A stretch of DNA of 64,000 bases from an uncultured Pelagibacteraceae bacterium. GTDB taxonomy: Bacteria; Pseudomonadota; Alphaproteobacteria; Pelagibacterales; Pelagibacteraceae. Within the stretch, counting starts at the first letter, position 1; each line of letters starts with the position of its first letter. The translations under genes were made by a program, and so were the position numbers. This document shows positions 17,434 through 22,479 of this stretch, piece after piece. The stretch covers positions 1-64,000 of the forward strand of contig CACNTW010000004.1 of NCBI GenBank assembly GCA_902623495.1, in the 5' to 3' direction. The notes under the pieces were generated by a model. The model did not search any database. It saw only the letters and a list, made by a program, of their open reading frames with translations, and had not been told where the DNA came from.

Positions 17434-18831
17434 ATGTCAGAAAAATTTGATGTTACAGTAATTGGTGGTGGTCCTGGTGGTTATGTTTGTGCAATTAGAT
17501 TGTCTCAACTTGGACTTAAAGTAGCATGCATAGAGTCTAGAGGATCTCTAGGAGGGACATGTTTAAATATTGGATGCATACCATCAAAAAGTTTACTTAA
17601 TTTATCTGAAAAATTTCACAGTGCTAAAAATTTTGAAAAAATTGGTATTGAGACTGGAGAAATAAAACTCAATTTAGATAAAATGATGAAAAATAAAGAC
17701 AAAGCTGTAACAGTTTTGACTAAAGGAGTTGAATTTTTATTCAAAAAAAACAAAGTCACTTATTTTAAAGGCAAAGGTTCATTTGAGAACAAAAATTCAA
17801 TAAAAATTGAAGGCTCTGAAGGCACTAAAATAATTCAAACTGATAAAACAATAATCAGTACAGGATCAGAGCCAGTTTCATTGCCTGGAGTAGATTTTGA
17901 TGAAGAAAGAATTCTATCTTCAACTGGAGCCCTATCTATTCCCAAGCTTCCTAATAAAATGATTGTTGTTGGAGGAGGATATATAGGATTAGAAATGGGA
18001 TCAGTTTGGTCAAGACTTGGCACTGAAGTTACAGTTGTAGAATTTTTAGACCACATAACTCCTGGAATGGATCGAGATATTTCAAATGAATTTATGAAAA
18101 TATTAAAGAAGCAAGGCATAAAATTCAACCTTAATACTAAAGTTGATAAAATAACTAAAAACTCTAATGGTGTAACGGTTGAGACTTCACAAAATGATGG
18201 CCAAAAAGTAAAACATGATGTTGATGTTGTTTTAATTTCTGTTGGACGAAGACCTTATACTAAAAACTTAAGTTTAGACAAAGTTGGTGTAGTTTTAGAT
18301 GAAAAGGGAAGAGTTAAAGTAAATAAAAATTTTGAGACAAATATTAAAAATATATACGCAATAGGAGATGTTATCGATGGTCCTATGTTAGCCCATAAAG
18401 CCGAAGAAGAGGGGATTGCCGTTGCAGAACTTATAGCAGGCCAATCAGGTCATGTGAATTATGATATTATTCCTGGAGTAGTTTATACATCCCCAGAGGT
18501 AGCTTATGTTGGTAAAACTGAGGAGCAATTAAAAAAAGAAAACATTGGTTATAAAATTGGTAAATTTCCTTTTATGGCAAATTCGAGAGCCAAAGCAATT
18601 GATGAACCAGAGGGTTTTGTAAAAATTTTGGCAGATCAATCAACTGATAAAGTACTTGGTGTACATATAATTGGTCCACATGCAGGAGAAATGATAGCAG
18701 AAATGTCCGTTGCAATGGAGTTTGGGGCCAGTTCAGAAGATATCGCAAGAACATGCCACGCACACCCAACATTTTCAGAAGCTATAAAAGAAGCGGCATT
18801 ATCTGTAGATAAAAGACAGATACACTCTTAA
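17434..18831 (+). CDS. lpd: Dihydrolipoyl dehydrogenase (E3)
   Basis: VIGGGPGGYVCAIRLSQLG, redox motif GGTCLNIGCIPSK, HAHPTFSEAIKEAAL. Confidence 0.95.
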   Translation: MSEKFDVTVIGGGPGGYVCAIRLSQLGLKVACIESRGSLGGTCLNIGCIPSKSLLNLSEKFHSAKNFEKIGIETGEIKLNLDKMMKNKDKAVTVLTKGVEFLFKKNKVTYFKGKGSFENKNSIKIEGSEGTKIIQTDKTIISTGSEPVSLPGVDFDEERILSSTGALSIPKLPNKMIVVGGGYIGLEMGSVWSRLGTEVTVVEFLDHITPGMDRDISNEFMKILKKQGIKFNLNTKVDKITKNSNGVTVETSQNDGQKVKHDVDVVLISVGRRPYTKNLSLDKVGVVLDEKGRVKVNKNFETNIKNIYAIGDVIDGPMLAHKAEEEGIAVAELIAGQSGHVNYDIIPGVVYTSPEVAYVGKTEEQLKKENIGYKIGKFPFMANSRAKAIDEPEGFVKILADQSTDKVLGVHIIGPHAGEMIAEMSVAMEFGASSEDIARTCHAHPTFSEAIKEAALSVDKRQIHS

Positions 18832-18835
18832 ACTA

Positions 18836-18858
18836 TAGGATTTTATAGGAAAATCCTA
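18836..18858 (+). terminator. Hairpin downstream of lpd, possible end of the TCA supercluster transcript
   Basis: TAGGATTTT-ATAGG-AAAATCCTA, 9-bp perfect stem and 5-nt loop, 5 nt after the lpd stop; no clean U-tract (AATTATCCTTTT follows). Confidence 0.5.
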
Positions 18859-18951
18859 AATTATCCTTTTGTATCAATAAGAATAATTAAATTTTTCAAA
18901 TTAAATAATCCTTTTTAGATCTATTATGATTGTTAACTTTTTTTTAACATT

Positions 18952-18984
18952 CATTTGTGTTGCTTGGTAAAGTCTTGTTAAGGA
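18952..18984 (+). repeat. 33-bp direct repeat, upstream copy
   Basis: CATTTGTGTTGCTTGGTAAAGTCTTGTTAAGGA; 27/33 identical to 20390-20422. Confidence 0.75.
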
Positions 18985-19025
18985 CTGCAAAACACTTTTG
19001 GTAAAATATTGGTAAATGTATGTAT

Positions 19026-19055
19026 TTGACTCTCTATTCAGACTTGTGATTTAAT
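19026..19055 (+). promoter_or_regulatory. Putative sigma70-type promoter of the PotD-like gene
   Basis: TTGACT (19026-19031), 18-bp spacer, TTTAAT (19050-19055), about 18 nt before the ATG; TTGGTAA heptamer pair immediately upstream. Confidence 0.45.
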
Positions 19056-19073
19056 ATTTATAGATTGCTATAT

Positions 19074-20345
19074 ATGAAAAAAATTTTAGGTTTTCTAATT
19101 CTGATTTTATTATTTAGTTCTAACTCTAATGCTGAAAAAGTAGTAATCGTTTCATGGGGAGGTGCTTACTCAGAAATGCAAAGACTAGGCCCAGCTGACT
19201 ATGCAGAAAAAAAAACTGGTATAAAAACTAAATTTGTTGATTACAACGGAGGCTTGTCTGATTTGAGAACTCAAAAAAAATCCAAAAGAATTAAATGGGA
19301 TATAATGGACGTATTCGTAAATGATACGATTGATGGATGTAAAGAAGGACTTTTTCATAAATTTGATTTTGATAAAGATTTTGCACCAGCACCTGATGGA
19401 ACTCCTGCTAGTAAAGATTTTATAAAATCAATGCCTTCCAAGTGCGCAGTTGGAAATATTTTATATTCATGGACATGGGGATATAATACAAATAACTTTG
19501 GTAGTGACCCTAAAACTATAGAAGATTTTTTTGATACAAAAAAATTTCCTGGAAAAAGAGCTCTTTATAAGGATGCTTTAACAAATTTAGAAATAGCTTT
19601 AGCTGCCGATGGAGTTAGACCAGGAAATGGTGGAGAAAATATTTATAAAATTCTTAAAACAAATGAAGGTCGTAAGAGAGCTTTTTACAAAATAAATGAT
19701 TTGTGTGCTGATCCTCAAGGTGGTTGTTTATTCTGGTCCAAGGGTGCTGAGCCAAAAGAACTTTTATCTAGTGGTAAAGTTGTAATGTCAACAGCATGGA
19801 ATGGAAGATTATTTAATGCTGAATTGGAGGGCGCACCAATAAAACAAGTTTGGGATGCTCAAATAATTGATTATGAGTATTTTGTTTTAGTAAAGAATGG
19901 TCCTAATTATAAAAATGGCAAAGCTTTAAAAATATTAAGAGAAATGACTAGTACCGCTGGAGGTGCTTCCCAATTAAAATATATTGCTTTTGCTCCTTGG
20001 AGAAGATCCGCAATTGATTTTGTTAAAGATCGAGAACCTTATTTTAAAGATGGAAAAACTAACATGTTACCACAAATGTCAACTTCTCCACAGAATACTA
20101 AAAACTTTGTTCTATTAGACCCAAATTTTTGGTCAGAAAATTCGAATACTATTAATAAATTGTGGGATGAGATGAAATCAAATATTTCTTTAGGTGTTTA
20201 TAAAATAAAAAAAAAAACTGAAGATATTAAAAATTCAACAGAGAGTAATTGGATAAAACAATTAGAAAATTTATCAAATTTATACAAATCTGGCGTTTTA
20301 ACTGAAGATGAATTTAAAAAATTAAAAAAAAGACTTTTGAATTGA
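19074..20345 (+). CDS. PotD/spermidine-putrescine-type extracellular solute-binding protein with C-terminal SHOCT-like segment
   Basis: Signal peptide MKKILGFLILILLFSSNSNA; body EKVVIVSWGGAYSEMQ...; C-terminus LENLSNLYKSGVLTEDEFKKLKKRLLN fits the SHOCT pattern. The track start at 19065 is TTG; ATG at 19074 is preferred. Confidence 0.85.
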   Translation: MKKILGFLILILLFSSNSNAEKVVIVSWGGAYSEMQRLGPADYAEKKTGIKTKFVDYNGGLSDLRTQKKSKRIKWDIMDVFVNDTIDGCKEGLFHKFDFDKDFAPAPDGTPASKDFIKSMPSKCAVGNILYSWTWGYNTNNFGSDPKTIEDFFDTKKFPGKRALYKDALTNLEIALAADGVRPGNGGENIYKILKTNEGRKRAFYKINDLCADPQGGCLFWSKGAEPKELLSSGKVVMSTAWNGRLFNAELEGAPIKQVWDAQIIDYEYFVLVKNGPNYKNGKALKILREMTSTAGGASQLKYIAFAPWRRSAIDFVKDREPYFKDGKTNMLPQMSTSPQNTKNFVLLDPNFWSENSNTINKLWDEMKSNISLGVYKIKKKTEDIKNSTESNWIKQLENLSNLYKSGVLTEDEFKKLKKRLLN

Positions 20346-20389
20346 AACATTGTGATAAAAGTAAGAGAATGATAAAAATATTTGTTAAA

Positions 20390-20422
20390 CATTTGTATTT
20401 CTTGGTAAATATTTGGTAAGGA
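20390..20422 (+). repeat. 33-bp direct repeat, downstream copy
   Basis: CATTTGTATTTCTTGGTAAATATTTGGTAAGGA; 27/33 identical to 18952-18984. Confidence 0.75.
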
Positions 20423-20523
20423 AATAAAAGATTGAATAGTGCTTCAAAAAGTGTTTTTTATCAACGGTTCTGTGTGTATGTTAAAAAGTCAAATACATTC
20501 ATAATATATATCATAATTAATTT

Positions 20524-22479
20524 ATGAAATATCCTGTTCTATTGCCTAATATATTTGATCATCCATTTACATATCTAAGTAATATTAAATTAAAACCAGG
20601 AGATTATGTAAAAGTACCTTTTGGTAAGAAAAATATTATTGGTGTAATTTGGGATATTTTTGAAGAAAAGAATAAGAAAGAATTTAAATTAAGATCTATA
20701 AATGAGAAAATTGAAATTGAACCACTAAGTAAAAGTACAATCAATTTTCTAAAGTGGTTTTCTAACTACAATCTTGTACCTCTAGGAATGTGTTTAAAAC
20801 TTCATTTAATTAATGACGAAAATTTAAAAATAAAAAATGACAGCGATCTATTAAAATATGCTCTATCAAGCGAAAAAGAAAGTTTTCAACTTTCTGAAGA
20901 GCAAGATAAGGCCTACAAAGAGTTATCTAAAAATGATAGCAGTTTTAGAGTTCATTTACTTCAAGGTACAACCGGTTCAGGAAAAACAATAGTTTATTTT
21001 AAAGCTATTGAAAAAATTATAAATATAGGATTACAAGCTCTAATTTTATTACCAGAAATAGGACTAACAAATGAATTTGAAAAAAAATTTAAATCTTATT
21101 TTGGATTTGAAGCTGCAGTTTGGCATTCAAAAGTCAGCCCAAAAAAAAGAAAAATTATATGGAATGGATTATCAGCAGGAAAAATTAAAGTTGTACTCGG
21201 AGCAAGATCATCTTTATTTCTGCCATTCAAAAAATTAGGTTTGATAACAGTAGATGAAGAGCACGATCAATCTTATAAACAAGATGAAGGAATTATCTAT
21301 AATGCTAGAGATATGGCAATATCAAGAGCTAAACACGAAAATATTCCAATAAATTTAGTAACTGCAGTTCCATCAATCGAAACATATGAAAATATTAAAA
21401 TTAAAAAATATAATTACTCAAGATTGCATAATCGATATAAAGGTGCCAATTTACCCAAACATCATGTTATCGATCTTTATCAAAATCAACTAGCGACCAA
21501 AAGCGCTATATCCCTCAAAACTCTTGAGAAAGTAAAAGAACATTTAAATAAAAAAGATCAAGTTCTCTTTTTCATAAATAGAAGAGGTTTTGCACCCTAT
21601 GTTTTATGTAAAAAATGTTTAAATGTTTTTACATGCCCAAGGTGTTCTATAAATTTAGTATTTCACAAAAATAAAAAAATTCTTTTGTGTCATTACTGCG
21701 GATATAATTCAAAATTAAATAGAGATTGTAAGAAAGGAAATGTTTGTGAGTTTGTATTTAGTGGACCTGGGGTAGAAAAAATTGCAGAGGAAGTTAAAAA
21801 CCTCTTTCCTAATAAAAAAACAATAATTTTTTCTAGCGACACAATGAATAAAGCATCTGGCAAAGATAAATTGAATAAAATTATATCTGGTGAAATAGAT
21901 ATTCTTGTAGGTACTCAATTAATATCAAAAGGATTTCACTTTCCAAAATTGAATTGTATTGTTGTATTAGATATAGATTTAACTTCTCAAGGACACGATC
22001 TTAGGAGCACTGAGAAAAATTTACAACTTTACCACCAGTTATCAGGAAGAGCAGGTAGAACCGGCAAACCAGCTAATATTTATTTCCAAACATATAACTT
22101 AAAACCAGAAGTTATAAATCAAATTACAAATGAAGATCCTTTTAAATTTTTAGAAAATGAATTAAATTTAAGAAAAAGAAATAGTTTACCTCCCTATGAA
22201 AGATTTATCGCTTTAATCTTATCTTCATCAAATGAAAAAAAACTTGATATAGATGCCGTAAAACTTAAAAATATTTTATCAAAATCTATAGATGCAAAAA
22301 TTTTAGGACCAGTAAATGCTCCAATATATAGAATTAATCAAAAATTCAGAAATAGACTATTAATAAGGGCAAAAAAAACATCTAATGTTCAGAAAAAATT
22401 GAAAGATGTATTGAAAGATTTTCAACTCTCCAAAGGAATGAAACTTTCAGTTGATGTTGACCCTATCAGCTTCAATTAG
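20524..22479 (+). CDS. priA: Primosomal protein N' (replication restart helicase)
   Basis: Walker A LLQGTTGSGKT, DEEHDQSYKQ, Cys-rich zinc-binding region, GRAGRTGKP. Confidence 0.93.
   Translation: MKYPVLLPNIFDHPFTYLSNIKLKPGDYVKVPFGKKNIIGVIWDIFEEKNKKEFKLRSINEKIEIEPLSKSTINFLKWFSNYNLVPLGMCLKLHLINDENLKIKNDSDLLKYALSSEKESFQLSEEQDKAYKELSKNDSSFRVHLLQGTTGSGKTIVYFKAIEKIINIGLQALILLPEIGLTNEFEKKFKSYFGFEAAVWHSKVSPKKRKIIWNGLSAGKIKVVLGARSSLFLPFKKLGLITVDEEHDQSYKQDEGIIYNARDMAISRAKHENIPINLVTAVPSIETYENIKIKKYNYSRLHNRYKGANLPKHHVIDLYQNQLATKSAISLKTLEKVKEHLNKKDQVLFFINRRGFAPYVLCKKCLNVFTCPRCSINLVFHKNKKILLCHYCGYNSKLNRDCKKGNVCEFVFSGPGVEKIAEEVKNLFPNKKTIIFSSDTMNKASGKDKLNKIISGEIDILVGTQLISKGFHFPKLNCIVVLDIDLTSQGHDLRSTEKNLQLYHQLSGRAGRTGKPANIYFQTYNLKPEVINQITNEDPFKFLENELNLRKRNSLPPYERFIALILSSSNEKKLDIDAVKLKNILSKSIDAKILGPVNAPIYRINQKFRNRLLIRAKKTSNVQKKLKDVLKDFQLSKGMKLSVDVDPISFN

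Follow-up and report, generated by a model that had tools for sequence, protein, structure and literature searches.

SAR11 bacteria are among the most abundant bacteria of the sea, and their streamlined genomes are usually called poor in mobile elements. Gene gain in these organisms is discussed mainly in terms of hypervariable regions and homologous recombination (e.g. PMC2217521), and no integron signature was reported for the hypervariable regions (PMC2217521). Several described systems come close to the locus that we report here. In KplE1, the attL site overlaps the int promoter, and the integrase IntS represses itself (PMC2951348). Tycheposons are described as elements of 4–200 kb that are located at tRNA genes and carry a recombinase (PMC10872708). 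CIMEs, finally, are cis-mobilisable elements, and this is the class to which we compare our locus. The window, that is, the whole stretch of DNA that we analyzed, comprises 64,000 nucleotides of an uncultured Pelagibacteraceae genome (G000 in our genome labels, 93% complete). We conclude that the block at about 18825–20497 of this window (~1.67–1.69 kb) is very likely a non-autonomous integrative cassette, inserted site-specifically at the 3' end of lpd. A description of an lpd integration site was not found in the literature that we searched, with preprints and most subscription papers lying outside the search.

The block is flanked by two host genes on the forward strand. On the left is lpd (17434–18831; Pfam Pyr_redox_2/Pyr_redox_dim), which encodes the E3 dihydrolipoamide dehydrogenase and serves as the integration target, and on the right is its conserved neighbour priA (20524–22479; Pfam PriA domains). 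An earlier note, made from the sequence alone, had pointed to a 33-bp direct repeat and a 16-bp inverted repeat around the solute-binding protein (SBP) gene between them, and to unusually long gaps of about 240 and 180 bp; it suggested that a regulatory region had been duplicated or that the insertion of a cassette had left scars. The coordinates and letters of the repeats held: 18952–18984 matches 20390–20422 at 27/33, which is the best direct repeat of the region, and 19016–19031 is an inverted match to 20487–20502 at 15/16. The gaps held as well; we measured 242 bp from the lpd stop to the SBP ATG (19074) and 178 bp from the SBP stop to the priA ATG. In the shuffle check, also suggested by the note, the direct repeat proved significant, with 27/33 reached by none of 1000 gap-versus-gap and none of 40 whole-region dinucleotide shuffles. 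The inverted repeat is not significant alone, 15/16 being reached in 10 of 1000 gap-versus-gap and 33 of 40 whole-region dinucleotide shuffles, and it is therefore credible only through comparison with sister elements. Chance repeats in AT-rich intergenic DNA would be the simplest alternative, and the inverted repeat, no better than shuffles over the region, speaks for it. The shuffles refute chance for the direct repeat, however, and the ends are conserved across genomes, so that this alternative is all but excluded. Inside the direct repeat we found a sharper unit, TTGGTAA-N4-TTGGTAA with an 11-bp period, which is present in the left gap at 18964 (1 mismatch) and 18998 (exact) and in the right gap at 20402 (exact). 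A pattern search of the whole 1.26-Mb genome gave only two exact copies of this unit, both in this block. Rfam gave no match within the window.

The final 21 bp of lpd exist in a second copy, and the right arm of the inverted repeat lies within that copy. This lpd end (AAAAGACAGATACACTCTTAA, 18811–18831, forward strand) recurs just before priA as AAAAGTCAAATACATTCATAA (20484–20504, forward strand). Compared with the empty sites of G010 and G110 (AAAAGACAGATACATTCATAATATATATC in G110) and with the cassette–cassette junction of G112 (AAAAAGTCAAATACACTCTTAAACTATAGG), the first copy is the attL core, the regenerated lpd 3' end, and the second is the attR core. Both junctions are chimeric. The attL is of host type to the left of ATACA and of cassette type (CTCTTAA ACTATAGG) to its right, reading host AGACAG, ATACA and cassette CTCTTAA, while the attR reads cassette AGTCAA, ATACA and host TTCATAA, the latter as in G110. 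These chimeras place the strand exchange in ATACA, and the element in G350 narrows the exchange point: host ATTCA is kept in its attL and cassette ATACA is found in its attR. Such a duplication with chimeric junctions is what site-specific recombination at the 3' end of a gene leaves behind. The same duplication of the target 3' end, as expected for an attL/attR core, is present at the right junction in the window and in its sisters (G000, G006, G036, G066, G112, G129, G146 and elements found later). Comparison additionally shows two tandem cassettes in G112 whose internal junction is attP-like, as predicted; the junction of an excised circle would read GTCAAATACACTCTTAAACTATAGG. The inverted repeat of the earlier note is the duplicated core paired with an inverted core-like site of the left end. 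The 33-bp repeat belongs to the cassette ends, where we read it as arm sites, and the duplication left in the host is that of the 21-bp lpd 3' end.

We were able to examine the spacing of lpd and priA in 106 SAR11 genomes with both genes on one contig, counted by hand from two tables. The two genes are joined by 21–46 bp in 74 of them, and an insert of 179 bp or more separates them in 32, showing that the lpd–priA junction is an insertion hotspot. The window block is absent from the nearest relatives (PriA 96–98% identical). Among these, G010 and G110 have lpd and priA directly joined, 22 bp apart, and together with 72 other genomes they provide the precise empty site. The earlier note had asked for such a joined strain with one repeat copy; the joined strains exist, but the expected copy does not, as they lack the 33-bp repeat. 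Many other inserts at lpd do not have the cassette ends (e.g. G002, G005, G012, G031, G136), and hence not all lpd inserts derive from this cassette system. Seven other close relatives contain an unrelated 702-bp insert at lpd–priA, a reverse-strand SAM methyltransferase gene without cassette ends (L040, L041, L042, L044–L047), which is also found to the right of the cassettes in G350 and G327. In G032, G035 and G161 (L165, L166, L162) we saw a three-gene block at lpd whose products were not identified, with a weak remnant of a cassette right end in G032 (26 bits). Large pilus-assembly clusters occupy the same site, one of 26 kb in G117 (L170/L171) and another within a stretch of ~43 kb in G177, as do many pilin-like genes (G177:C1, L236 and L273–L275; G117, L170/L171; G153, L235).

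Seven of the 32 inserts, including that of the window, have the same ends (G000, G006, G036, G066, G112, G129, G146). On the left, the lpd core is followed after ~100 bp by two arm pairs 34 bp apart, the inverted core and then the cargo; on the right, one arm pair lies ~85–90 bp before the duplicated core. For the wider search we used sequence-only profile models of the left (R1) and the right end (R2), which replaced a bare 18-bp pattern that also matches coding sequence by chance (e.g. L126, L131, L143). R1 found left ends in 19 of 399 genomes, all of them at the lpd 3' end. Twelve of these genomes had not been used in model building, and all twelve matches are at lpd; the gene is close by in eleven, the exception being G177, where lpd and priA bound a 43-kb stretch that includes a tandem junction. 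At most of these loci R2 locates the right end as well. G409 lacks the right arm pair, the contig of G153 ends before it, and some lpd inserts have decayed right ends (G007, G089, G032). Most cassettes measure 1–6 kb, that of the window ~1.67 kb. Shared ends at lpd in 19 genomes are thereby shown, and the suggestion of scars of a cassette insertion held: the same two ends flank other cargo at lpd in 18 further genomes. In viral contigs (IMG/VR), queried with three att/arm DNA patterns and with the integrase and SBP proteins, no cassette was found, and packaging is consequently not favoured. Matches there to AAGTCAAATACAYTCWTAA and TATGTATTTGACTYTC were rejected as chance by model R1 or by their context.

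The left end of the window cassette (18832–19073, forward strand), a conserved platform that reaches up to the cargo start codon, is recognised by model R1, and its first 228 bp are 87% identical to the left end in G418 (blastn 8e-77). The right end (20346–20483, forward strand) is 84.5% identical to that in G336 over 142 bp (blastn 4e-41), and R2 matches the window at 20398–20504 with E=1e-24, although the window copy is part of that model. The lpd genes of G418 and G336 are only 74.5% identical to ours at the DNA level. Because the ends are more alike than lpd, we conclude that they travel apart from the chromosome. This observation also bears on a second alternative, in which ordinary homologous recombination across lpd and priA brought the block in from another SAR11 cell, without site-specific integration into this lineage. 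SAR11 recombines freely, and lpd and priA offer conserved flanks. Against this, the flanks are native, the right junction matches the G110-type empty site, and the ends resemble those of genomes with so distant an lpd. Moreover, the cassettes in G350 and G327 are located between lpd and the clade-specific 702-bp insert, with neither disturbed. We consider homologous recombination very unlikely.

Under site-specific integration, the TTGGTAA pairs find a place as arm-type sites. Pair L1 (TTGGTAAAGTCTTGTTAA, 18964–18981) occupies the same place in the sisters, at +120 to +133 from lpd also in G006, G036, G066 and G112. Pair L2 (TTGGTAAAATATTGGTAA, 18998–19015) follows 34 bp after L1, and pair R (TTGGTAAATATTTGGTAA, 20402–20419) is located in the right end, all three on the forward strand. 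Arm repeats are thus present at both ends in conserved positions and look like arm-type integrase sites, an inference for which there are no binding data. The arm letters tend to co-vary between the two ends of one element (TTGGTAA, TTGGTAC, TTGGCAC). The arm-type reading is supported by pairs of 11-bp period that lie between att site and integrase at unrelated sites, namely at ssrA in G000 (TGGCGTCATGGTGGCGTCA) and at tRNA-Thr in G211 (CTGTCGGTCTTTCTGTCGG). One may also read the pairs as transcription-factor operators, 11-bp direct half-sites of the PhoB/OmpR type that were duplicated on either side of a regulated transporter gene, and the half-site spacing and the two pairs upstream of a solute-binding protein gene fit this idea. 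However, in G000 the exact motif does not occur outside this block. Unrelated kinds of cargo, and in two genomes an integrase, are preceded by the same array, in every case at lpd. In addition, the right end has a pair of its own ahead of attR, and a change in the arm letters at one end of an element tends to be matched at the other. Genome- and genus-wide pattern searches placed the motif at cassette ends and integrase attachment regions. We rejected the operator or regulon reading, which is very unlikely.

Next to the arm-type sites L1 and L2, the left end contains an inverted copy of the core site (ATGTATGTATTTGACTCT, 19016–19033, reverse strand). Its motif TATGTATTTGACT is invariant in 11 aligned left ends and includes TTGACT at a possible −35 position. 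It is conceivable, though only inferred, that TTGACT is the −35 box of a promoter for the cargo or the integrase; a promoter scan gave no more hits than in shuffles, and we claim no −10 box. When ten left ends of the same subtype were aligned with that of G000, the similarity ran to about +240 and then stopped, whatever the cargo. The first start codon is found at about +240 in most of them, and in G006 and G256 the first recognisable ORF lies further in. Because the distance to the cargo is constant in most cassettes of this subtype, we infer that the left end very likely supplies the cargo promoter. The idea of a regulatory region therefore held in part. By analogy with KplE1 IntS, a recombinase that binds the inverted core would occupy the promoter. 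Across subtypes the inverted core changes with the core, but this is weak evidence, as about 4–5% of permutations do as well.

Comparison shows an integrase gene in two sisters. In G036 and G146 the first gene after the left end, at +268, encodes a tyrosine recombinase of 509 and 514 aa, respectively (L174:612–2138 in G036), with PHROG integrase matches of E=4e-25 and 5e-20 and Pfam Phage_integrase matches of 5e-5 and 5e-4, the latter below the curated gathering cut-off. Both elements measure ~9 kb. The G036 element also has genes for DNA polymerase A and a small terminase; none for a capsid was recognised. Autonomous partners with the same ends plus an integrase thus exist, but not in the same genome as the window cassette. 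A search of 399 genomes for this integrase returned only G036, G146 and a distant one at tRNA-Thr in G211, with none in G000, and no matching phage record was found. The window block has no integrase of its own, the SBP gene being its only ORF, and 17 of the 19 elements, that of the window included, are without an integrase match. Since the assemblies come from single cells or metagenomes and differ in completeness, an integrase missing from one genome is weak evidence, while its absence from cassettes sequenced end to end is strong. From the lack of integrases in the cassettes, together with the shared ends, we infer that the cassette is moved in trans by a rare integrase, although no excised circle was seen and no experiment was performed. 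Possibly the matching integrase is located in the missing part of G000. Two further tyrosine recombinases are encoded in this genome: one, of 317 aa, on C1 and one on C19 (L185:7103–9013), the latter a phage-type integrase directly after ssrA (tmRNA) at the contig end and belonging to an integrated element that was cut by the assembly.

The missing integrase could also mean decay: an integrative element or satellite that lost its own integrase after insertion, with the SBP as a remnant and the block now immobile. In favour of this are the integrase-bearing sisters with the same site and the same ends, and the decayed right ends in G007, G089 and G032. Most of the elements without an integrase match, however, have retained both ends, and their cargo is intact and begins at a similar position. 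The 1.69-kb block contains no integrase remnant, and the cargo differs in each element, so that these are not deletion derivatives of one. We regard decay as unlikely and prefer the non-autonomous cassette. In our proposal, a tyrosine recombinase would have joined a circular cassette with an attP of the type AAAAAGTCAAATACACTCTTAAACTATAGG to the lpd 3' end (attB), such that lpd retained an intact 3' end and the second copy was left on the priA side. The arm-binding domain of the integrase would bind the TTGGTAA pairs, of which the left end has two and the right end one, and the inverted core-like site at 19016–19033 would be a further recombinase site that overlaps the promoter of the first gene. 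This first gene is the integrase in the integrase-bearing sisters; here it would have been swapped for the SBP–SHOCT cargo, and the cassette, without an integrase, would need to be moved in trans.

The cargo gene (19074–20345, forward strand) encodes a secreted SBP_bac_8 protein of 423 aa with a C-terminal SHOCT module (Pfam SBP_bac_8 1.9e-24, 87.4 bits versus a gathering cut-off of 27; SHOCT 1.3e-6). It has no ABC permease or ATPase of its own beside it, as the flanks are lpd and priA. A complete ABC transporter with a 58% identical SBP paralogue is encoded on C3 of G000 (genes read by eye). Most likely the protein is a variant binding component for the SBP_bac_8-type ABC transporter of the host or senses ligands at the cell surface, a role that we infer. 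PADLOC gave no match for the SBP. Its closest relative in the 399 genomes, 77% identical, carries a fused caspase domain. Its ~2.7-kb block in G349 (L069) is bounded by one partial and one complete tRNA-Leu gene, has repeat pairs of its own and contains no integrase. This SBP–caspase (L069:4700–7600, also L100) has 784 aa with Pfam SBP_bac_8 and Peptidase_C14, and the block, with repeated CAGTACC pairs near both ends, appears as a second cassette family with related cargo. A longer SBP, 57% identical to that of the window, is encoded by a 1250-codon open frame in L101; besides a SHOCT stretch it has low-complexity repeats, and its C-terminal part is caspase-like. Several secreted G000 proteins with unrelated N-terminal parts share a SHOCT-like tail (LYKSGVLSKEEFEKAKKKILN; L037:5399–6982, L038:4904–5833). 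The other lpd cassettes contain pilins, trypsin-like proteases (G129, G350), a type III restriction pair (G327), a Mokosh-like helicase (G006), PrsW-like and channel-like genes (G066, by eye) and, in G418, a gene with a weak beta-lactamase-fold match. Several of these are defence-like, judged by sequence only.

One may speculate about a general SAR11 cassette system of single- or few-gene cassettes that lack a recombinase. Each attB (lpd, tRNA-Leu and others) would have its own family, and rare integrases borne by satellites would move the cassettes in trans. The att end would be an expression platform with a recombinase site overlapping the promoter, and cargo such as surface or secreted proteins, proteases, and restriction and other defence-like genes would be swapped between families. 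Such swapping is suggested by the tRNA-Leu SBP–caspase relative of the window SBP, yet on balance we lean slightly against this bolder reading as a whole. If it were true, phage-type integrase sites would form the basis of a shuttle resembling an integron, in genomes that are regarded as nearly devoid of mobile elements. We also saw TTGGTAAATAGTTGGTAA in about 12 SAR11 genomes, mostly ~130 bp from a partial tRNA sequence (TTATGAGTGTACTGCTCTAACCAACTGAGCTACAGGCCC) and next to genes such as DNA cytosine methyltransferases (L127–L130, L138, L139, L142, L145, L146, L149, L151); a further family of elements probably has its att ends at these loci. Of the genomes examined, about 30% carry an insert at the lpd 3' end, and about 5% a cassette there whose recombinase end can be recognised. 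This fixed site is a concrete and testable route to the gain of single genes, defence-like genes included, and the paired repeats of 11-bp period together with the core duplication allow cassettes to be recognised by sequence. Should the integrase work, it could become a site-specific integration tool for SAR11.

Compared with known systems, the locus resembles the tyrosine-recombinase islands and prophages at gene 3' ends (lambda Int, KplE1 IntS, Islander-type islands) in its core duplication, the regenerated target gene and the arm-type repeats that flank the core. A promoter overlapping attL was shown for KplE1 IntS (PMC2951348), and the first gene of the window cassette is probably alike. 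In contrast to these elements, the cassette has no integrase, its target lpd is a protein gene, and its cargo is located beside attL. Judged by their layout alone, a core and 11-bp arm pairs that follow each other in fixed order where lpd ends, the cassette ends look unlike the attC sites of integrons. The ~9-kb elements of G036, with its integrase, DNA polymerase A and small terminase, and G146 are like the small marine phage satellites (PICMIs, PMC10803314; VEIMEs), whereas the window cassette lacks the packaging or phage-hijack genes of PICI, PICMI and VEIME satellites and has no viral-contig copies. Tycheposons of Prochlorococcus and OM43 (PMC10872708) are likewise cargo elements of streamlined marine bacteria that use a tyrosine recombinase; the window cassette, at lpd, only 1.67 kb long and without a recombinase, does not meet the tycheposon criteria. 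With CIMEs and with hitchers such as MITEs and CALIN arrays (PMC11389934 for the hitchers), the lpd cassettes share recombination ends and cargo without the enzyme, as well as tandem accretion (G112, G177). They do not, however, have the transposon ends of MITEs, and their ends do not look like the attC sites of CALIN arrays. Finally, they differ from CIMEs and hitchers in forming a population with exchangeable cargo at one site, in which integrase carriers are far rarer. Provided that the inferred trans-mobilisation is correct, the cassette would work like a CIME or an integrase-less island.
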